Origin: Candidatus Helarchaeota archaeon
Lineage (GTDB): Archaea > Asgardarchaeota > Lokiarchaeia > Helarchaeales > JABXJV01
Assembly (NCBI GenBank): GCA_013375355.1
Contig: JABXJV010000004.1
Coordinates: 1-22,858, forward strand
Direction of reading: 5' to 3'
Length of the DNA stretch: 22,858 nt
The translations under genes were made by a program, and so were the position numbers. Under the pieces are notes generated by a model that saw nothing but the letters and a program-made list of their open reading frames with translations, was not told the origin of the DNA and searched no databases. This document shows, piece after piece, positions 17,695 to 19,217 of the stretch; position 1 is the stretch's first letter, and every line of letters starts with the position of its first letter.

Positions 17695-18660
17695 ATTTCA
17701 AATGAAAATAACTCCTTCTTAGATAAAACAGACGATTTCAACTCTAATGATGACGAAACCTCAATTTGTCCGGAATGTGGGAGCGTAGAAATTACTAATG
17801 ATGTAACCCGTGGAGAACTTATTTGTAGAAATTGTGGAATGGTCATAAGTGAAAAGCTTATTGATCAAGGTCCTGAATGGAGAGCTTTTAACTTAGAGGA
17901 AAGGGATAAACGAAGCCGTGTAGGGTCCCCCTCAACTTATACTTTACACGATAAAGGTCTATCTACTATGATAGATTGGCATGATAAAGACTCATTTGGA
18001 AAAAAATTGACTCCTAAAAGGCGAGCACAAATATATAGATTAAGAAAATGGCAAATTCGAACAAGAGTTCATAGCTCTATTGATAGAAATTTGGCAATAG
18101 CTATGAGTGAGTTGGATAGACTCAGTAGTCAATTGGGGATCCCACGTGGTGTTAAGGAGAGCTCTGCTGTAATTTACAGGAGGGCTATTGAGAAAAAACT
18201 CATAAGAGGTAGGTCTATTGAAGCTATGGTCGGTGCCTCAATTTATGCTGCCTGTCGTATGAGAAAAATTCCTCGAACTTTGGACGAAATTGCTCGACAT
18301 TCAAGAGTCAATAAGAAGGAATTGGGAAGATGTTACAGATTAATTTTAAGAGAACTAGATGTTCAAATTCCTATCGCCAGTCCAATTGATTTTATTCCAC
18401 GTTTTGGCGCAGAATTAGCTCTTTCCGGACGAACTCAACGTAGAGCGGCCGAAATAGTAATTATGGCACGAAAAAGTGGTATAACTGCTGGCAAAGATCC
18501 TACTGGTTTGGCTGCAGCTTCGATTTATATTTCTGCTATATTAGAGGGTGAACGAAGAACCCAACGAGAAATTGCTGAAATTGTTCACGTCACTGAAGTT
18601 ACAGTTAGAAATAGGTATAAGGAATTAGTAAGAGAACTGAAAATCAGAGTTGATGTGTAA
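17695..18660 (+). CDS. tfb: Transcription initiation factor TFB (TFIIB homologue), apparent ATT start
   Basis: Recruits RNA polymerase to TBP-bound promoters and contacts the BRE. About 321 residues counted from ATT. The zinc ribbon has Cys25, Cys28 (CPEC), Cys44, Cys47 (CRNC), then the reader/linker region with [16 protein letters not shown], and two cyclin-fold repeats: about 115-210 ([16 protein letters not shown]...AAIYAACR-type core) and about 215-310 ([13 protein letters not shown], then the BRE-contacting helix-turn-helix [12 protein letters not shown]). The first ATG in frame is at 17839, within the zinc ribbon after the fourth cysteine, so it cannot be the natural start. Between the in-frame TGA at 17680 and that ATG there is no ATG, GTG or TTG. 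ATT at 17695 is best placed by the Shine-Dalgarno; a one-base indel upstream is the alternative. Confidence 0.93.
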
Positions 18661-18694: not shown

Positions 18695-18994
18695 TTATTG
18701 AACCACAATATTTTCTTCAGCAAAACCTTCTTTTTCAAGGACATCTTTGACTATTTGTCGATGGTCACCTTGTAACACTATATATCCATTTTTATATGAT
18801 CCCCCAGCAGCACAACGATTTTTTAGTCTGACGACTAAATCTTTTAATCGGTTTTGCTCAATCCCCTCGACTATAGTAACAAGTTTACCGTATTTTCGCT
18901 TTTCAACTTTAATCTTAATTTCTTTTTCTTCTTTGGCTATTTCTTTACACATGCACAAATCTTTAGGTAACGAACATTTTGGACAAATTTCTAT
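18695..18994 (-). CDS. Translation initiation factor aIF1 (SUI1/eIF1 homologue), apparent ATA start
   Basis: Small ribosome-bound factor (99 residues) that enforces start-codon selection on the 30S subunit. The SUI1 fold is clear: KRKYGKLVTIVEGIEQNRL, then RLKNRCAAGGSYKNGYIVLQGDHR with the conserved basic loop and GD-HR turn, and FAEENI at the end. The archaeal zinc knuckle EICPKCSLPKDLCMC (Cys4, Cys7, Cys14, Cys16 from ATA) lies in frame upstream of the TTG at 18958, which would cut it in half. No ATG, GTG or TTG exists between the upstream in-frame TAA and the first cysteine. ATA at 18994 gives M-E-I-C-P, the usual archaeal beginning, and AGGAGAG ends 7 nt before it. It is convergent with tfb, with 34 nt between stops. 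Confidence 0.92.
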   Translation of the reverse strand: MEICPKCSLPKDLCMCKEIAKEEKEIKIKVEKRKYGKLVTIVEGIEQNRLKDLVVRLKNRCAAGGSYKNGYIVLQGDHRQIVKDVLEKEGFAEENIVVQ

Positions 18995-19001
18995 ATTTTT
19001 T

Positions 19002-19008
19002 CTCTCCT
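19002..19008 (-). promoter_or_regulatory. Shine-Dalgarno of the aIF1 gene, supporting an ATA start
   Basis: AGGAGAG on the minus strand leaves a 7-nt spacer to ATA at 18994. It is 43 nt from the first canonical start (TTG 18958), too far to serve it. Confidence 0.6.
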
Positions 19009-19217
19009 GGGTTGCTTTTGAAAAAACATCTTATATTGATTATTTTATTTTAATGTTTATTTGTTTGTTATTATTCTTTATATTTCTTATTGTACTTTAT
19101 TAATTCAAATTATTTAAGACTTGTTCGAATTTTTAACATAGAATTGATAACTCATGTCATTAAATATTTGTTTTTGAGCAAAATAAAATAAATGGCGCCG
19201 TATTTGAAATAAAAGTA

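Follow-up and report, generated by a model that had tools for sequence, protein, structure and literature searches.

A near-cognate AUA start and possible autoregulation of the aIF1 gene in Asgard archaea

The gene for initiation factor aIF1 in the Helarchaeota DNA analysed here (a stretch of 22,858 nucleotides, hereafter the window) almost certainly begins at an ATA codon. Many of its Asgard relatives appear to begin at AUA, AUU or CUG, a pattern suggesting that aIF1 regulates its own synthesis. In our judgement the best explanation is an AUA-initiated aIF1 under negative autoregulation, to which we assign a probability of about 0.6 from the sequence evidence laid out below.

Results

The gene product is a member of the SUI1/aIF1 family, its frame matching Pfam PF01253 (68.5 bits against a cut-off of 25.5; E = 7e-19) and NCBIfam NF002096 (124.9 bits against a cut-off of 98). 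The gene and its leader comprise the following features, with two Helarchaeota relatives (L001 and L002) used for comparison:

18695..18994, minus strand: aIF1 (SUI1 family) coding sequence from ATA, 99 codons plus a TAA stop; relatives L001 and L002
18992..18994, minus strand: almost certain ATA start codon, from the sequence and its conservation in relatives
19002..19008, minus strand: Shine-Dalgarno (SD) sequence AGGAGAG, 7 nt 5' of ATA, facing the anti-SD GGATCACCTCCT
19031..19033, minus strand: in-frame upstream stop TAA, bounding the possible start
18947..18985, minus strand: zinc knuckle CPKCSLPKDLCMC, with invariant Cys at columns 4, 7, 14 and 16 of a 19-row alignment
18956..18958, minus strand: TTG, first canonical in-frame start, within the knuckle and judged unused
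18991..19029, minus strand: out-of-frame upstream ORF (uORF) of 12 codons (ATG...TAG), its stop overlapping ATA
18995..19217, minus strand: divergent intergenic region, the expected site of the aIF1 promoter and leader

Following the upstream TAA, the minus strand reads GAT GTT TTT TCA AAA GCA ACC CAG GAG AGA AAA AAT ATA GAA ATT TGT. This reading confirms the original prediction that no ATG, GTG or TTG occurs in the aIF1 frame between that stop and the first cysteine, and that ATA at 18994 lies behind AGGAGAG at a distance of 7 nt, the spacer AAAAAAT being exactly of that length. Initiation at the first canonical codon, TTG 18958, had been said to break the knuckle, and the codon does sit inside it, as does the next in-frame ATG (18952-18950); the knuckle is translated whole only with initiation upstream of TTG 18958. 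It carries Ser where the published motif has Gly. The anti-SD was found at two 16S-like 3' ends of the nearest genome (G001).

The aIF1 gene is convergent with a TFB gene (17839-18660, plus strand) and divergent from a radical SAM gene (from 19218, plus strand), a layout repeated by the ORFs in L001. No minus-strand gene is listed directly upstream of aIF1, and operon coupling is therefore not expected. The uORF is common to the window and L001 and absent in L002; its TAG overlaps the ATA by two bases. Scanning the window for tRNA genes gave no hit.

Comparison of the upstream regions of Asgard relatives, proposed at the outset as a check for a conserved ATA or ATT with an SD, was positive. 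ATA and GGAGAG occupy the same place in L001 and L002, whose proteins show 98% and 61% identity, respectively. Neither an indel nor a set of relatives all carrying ATG was found; both of the nearest genomes with available DNA have ATA. In L002, a TAA lies one codon 5' of ATA with only GTT between them, such that only GTT or ATA could initiate upstream of the conserved GAG-ATT-TGC. In the 14-codon stretch that begins with ATA and ends just short of the internal ATG, the window and L002 differ by eight synonymous and no non-synonymous changes, which argues that this stretch is translated, with its N terminus under protein-level selection, and that the TTG or ATG picked by gene callers is too late.

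To place this start in a wider context, we matched aIF1 in 200 of the 227 genomes of the phylum, nearly all of them metagenome assemblies; the matches listed may lack second copies from some genomes. A profile search of the 80 genomes whose matches were still unread gave 54 with a match, a few fragment matches being left out. In total, 201 aIF1 genes were read, including that of the window, and 188 retained the knuckle after 13 were dropped (one cut by a contig end, one masked and 11 without a knuckle). In 69 of these 188, there is no in-frame ATG, GTG or TTG from the upstream stop to the first cysteine.

Start codons were called by ourselves, from position after the SD and alignment within clades, in 172 genes: GTG in 51, ATG in 47, ATT in 44, ATA in 14, CTG in 10, TTG in five and ATC in one. 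The other 16 were left unclassified because GTG, TTG or ATG is also in frame, often inside the SD. With group labels taken from the NCBI names of the closest proteins (a few of them Odinarchaeota, Hodarchaeota, Hermodarchaeota or Heimdallarchaeota), the ATT/ATC set (44 + 1 = 45 genes) is Lokiarchaeota/Promethearchaeota-like. The CTG/GTG group is mainly Thorarchaeota-like, as are nine of the ten CTG genes, and the 41 classified Thorarchaeota-like genes divide into 32 with GTG and nine with CTG, none having ATG. A gene tree (187 rows, with the unclassified G084 left out, and about 100 columns) implies that the start switched between canonical and non-canonical at least 11 times, a rough count. 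As called from sequence, the near-cognate start of aIF1 is conserved in relatives, yet not in all of them, since 47 of the 172 genes have ATG and 51 have GTG.

Some Lokiarchaeota-like genomes hold a second aIF1 copy (L147 in G093, L186 in G119 and L161 in G139), in which a GTG within an SD-like GAGGTG hides which codon initiates.

The motif AAGGTTGTGA precedes the start by exactly 9 nt in 38 of the 45 Lokiarchaea-like genes and is missing in seven, three of which have a weak SD (-3.7 to -3.8). An in-frame stop stands one to three codons 5' of the start in 44 of the 45. The Ile codon just before the first cysteine is likewise mostly ATT (38 of 45). Across ten Lokiarchaea-like genomes, the aIF1 SD duplex energy ranges from -8.6 to -10.0 kcal/mol, compared with control medians in those genomes of -3.3 for aIF1A, -1.1 for aIF6 and -3.5 for aIF2beta; uL14, at -9.3, equals aIF1 in strength. 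The aIF1 SDs of Thorarchaea-like genomes are no stronger than those of the controls. Lokiarchaea reportedly have few SDs (PMC12993045, PMC7531240). By this analysis, the putative AUU start of Lokiarchaea-like aIF1, mostly behind a strong SD, resembles the design of bacterial infC.

The controls were the genes for aIF1A, aIF6, uL14 and aIF2beta in 30 genomes picked for near-cognate or ambiguous aIF1 starts, a choice reflected in the 25 of 30 whose aIF1 has no canonical codon. Of 116 control matches, three were dropped (the mislocated L243 and L251 and the partial L289). No canonical codon precedes the conserved part in only three of the remaining 113, all of them aIF6. Set against the 69 of 188 aIF1 genes, this gives a Fisher p of about 3e-13, with kinship ignored. 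Except for aIF6, the control blocks begin farther from the stop than in aIF1, and this longer lead makes a canonical codon likelier by chance; the fairest control is therefore aIF6, with its short lead, in which 3 of 28 are without a canonical start.

Two of these aIF6 genes, from Thorarchaeota-like genomes (L267 in G180 and L271 in G216), have ACG about where the relative L273 has ATG, behind GGCGGAGGGATAG. The third (L276 in G096) has CTG or ATT.

Outside Asgard, an aIF1 gene without a canonical start was found in none of 75 (Thermoplasmatota and DPANN). ATG begins all 46 of the non-Asgard archaeal loci assigned to Thermoplasmatota or Euryarchaeota by title, and to DPANN (49 loci minus L049 and L050, which were dropped, and the bacterial L051). 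A further 29 DPANN genes comprise 28 with ATG and one with GTG; these are 31 loci minus two repeats (L390, identical to L010, and L392, identical to L016) and represent about half of 59 DPANN matches.

We also surveyed 400 kb of G001, in which a few of 355 ORFs appear to begin at near-cognate codons. An SD-like site with no canonical codon at normal spacing occurs at 141 of the 355, many of these sites being probably intragenic, and the scan is noisy enough that no rate was derived from it. Seven suspicious ORFs were chosen by eye and three put to Pfam; in all three the match begins 5' of the first canonical codon. The DUF2229 and KaiC matches exceed the curated cut-off, and the PCI match is weak and falls short of it. 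The DUF2229 gene (CoA enzyme activase; C1:91969-92994, in L374) matches from residue 4, its first canonical codon being residue 12, and seems to initiate at an ATT directly after AGGTGATGTAA. Plausible N termini precede any canonical codon in a KaiC/V4R ORF (C1:198023-199834), a PCI-like membrane ORF (C5:22748-23674) and a membrane ORF (C5:48604-49740), the membrane or PCI-like cases, of which there are two or three, having been judged by eye. We rejected the idea that aIF1 is the sole gene with a near-cognate start, since some of these other ORFs look much the same; the feature is enriched in aIF1 but is apparently shared by a few other genes. These archaea thus seem, from such cases, to tolerate near-cognate starts at a low level.

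One further ORF (C5:132648-133988), radical-SAM-like by eye, has no ATG, GTG or TTG in its first 279 codons and is probably a frameshifted or broken gene.

Alternative explanations

Most gene callers assume that aIF1 begins within the knuckle, at TTG 18958 or ATG 18952, and eight database relatives (P0002-P0009, the first of them encoded on the L001 contig) are recorded as proteins of 80-85 aa from an internal Met. We rejected this reading as highly improbable: the SD is placed for ATA and not for TTG or ATG, protein-level conservation extends upstream of both codons, and NCBI annotation itself begins at a near-cognate codon in two distant relatives, P0046 (ATT; contig of L203) and P0175 (CTG; contig of L064). 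NCBI also lists a 99 aa version beginning MEICP (P0001), although the start codon of its gene could be any. The leader contains T6 and A6 runs, which could point to a sequencing or assembly error, with a true ATG start or a canonical start hidden by a one-base indel. Such an error is barely conceivable, and we rejected it, since ATA with its SD recurs in G001 and, at 61% protein identity, in L002, with leaders that differ, and AUU, AUC and CUG versions occur in dozens of separate assemblies. Translation might instead start at the upstream ATG (19029) and reach the aIF1 frame by a -1 slip on the T6 run, or terminate at TAG 18991 and re-initiate at ATA, which we consider very unlikely. The ATG and T6 run are kept in L001, the uORF stop overlaps the ATA and the literature discusses a -1 frameshift in the Sulfolobus solfataricus aIF1 gene (PMC8211752), but L002 is without this leader and has TAA one codon 5' of ATA, and nearly all Lokiarchaea-like genes (44 of 45) likewise have an in-frame stop one to three codons before the start. 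A frameshift upstream of such a stop could not yield the protein, and it was rejected for the group; re-initiation would in any case leave ATA as the start.

The main rival accepts the near-cognate codon as real, with the codon either setting a low constant level of aIF1 synthesis or having drifted through permissive initiation, and involves no feedback. Simple permissiveness is possible given the few other G001 genes with apparent near-cognate starts, the DUF2229 and KaiC/V4R genes seeming alike in this respect, and the alternation of GUG (32) and CUG (9) among the 41 classified Thorarchaea-like aIF1 genes also speaks for it. Against it, aIF1 stands far above the background of the controls (69/188 versus 3/113), and drift does not predict AUU in 44 of 45 Lokiarchaea-like genes or a fixed SD distance in 38, although the mostly ATT Ile codon just before the first cysteine weakens this point. 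Furthermore, any near-cognate start should respond to aIF1 if the factor acts as it does in S. solfataricus. We regard a start without feedback as unlikely, though it deserves serious consideration, and prefer negative autoregulation of an AUA-initiated aIF1.

Discussion

Under autoregulation, AUA (18994) would initiate translation of the aIF1 mRNA, placed by the SD 7 nt upstream, and aIF1 would destabilise initiation complexes formed at any codon but AUG. A gene with a near-cognate start whose product rejects such starts should be repressed by that product: when aIF1 is plentiful, translation of its own mRNA would fall and, when scarce, it would rise, forming a negative feedback loop. Recurrence in Asgard genomes, the controls and the infC-like architecture are consistent with aIF1 acting on its own mRNA, and with the codon being kept for that reason. 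The loop would be like that of bacterial infC and its product IF3, having arisen independently on a non-homologous factor. The SUI1 fold of aIF1 is not known to be homologous to IF3. As for infC, the sequence gives a gene for a fidelity factor (by homology) and a near-cognate start that is conserved in relatives.

The proposed action of the factor draws on the literature: in S. solfataricus, aIF1 helps to discriminate against non-canonical starts, and the Pyrococcus abyssi factor is reported to keep initiation complexes dynamic, favouring proofreading (PMC6237735, PMC8211752, PMC7531240). The infC gene likewise encodes a fidelity factor, begins at a near-cognate AUU (AUC in Streptomyces), is often misannotated and is autoregulated by IF3 through its AUU start (PMC5472188). 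Lokiarchaea-like aIF1 and infC share the same AUU codon; unlike infC, the aIF1 mRNA is archaeal and feedback is here a proposal from sequence. In Streptomyces, the GTC start of sigR is repressed by IF3, a non-canonical start being read by a fidelity factor as would be the case here, although sigR is another gene as target and its regulation is experimentally shown (PMC5472188). The eukaryotic eIF1 mRNA offers a homologous factor (e/aIF1) with a start site disfavoured by the factor itself (cited in PMC6237735), but eIF1 keeps AUG and weakens its context under scanning, whereas Asgard aIF1 would change the codon behind an SD. Unusual expression is also reported for S. solfataricus aIF1, in the form of a -1 frameshift; this gene was later re-sequenced as full length, and the case is not a start-codon effect (PMC8211752). 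No description of a non-AUG start in archaeal aIF1 emerged from a literature search that covered few subscription papers.

In many Asgard genomes the annotated aIF1 is cut short and loses its zinc knuckle, which affects structural or evolutionary work on Asgard translation. More broadly, we tentatively suggest, at somewhat less than an even chance, that an infC-like aIF1 homeostat evolved in several Asgard lineages, in which a strong SD promotes starts at AUA, AUU or CUG no further than scarce aIF1 allows. Other genes with near-cognate starts in these genomes would then form an aIF1-sensed regulon. Bacteria and archaea would have built the same homeostatic trick on unrelated factors. Self-limiting start-codon fidelity would be found in all three domains, in eukaryotes on a homologous factor. 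If so, the closest archaeal kin of eukaryotes would carry the trick on a factor of the eukaryotic type, their version could be an evolutionary precursor of eIF1 autoregulation, and the origin of that autoregulation would become testable.
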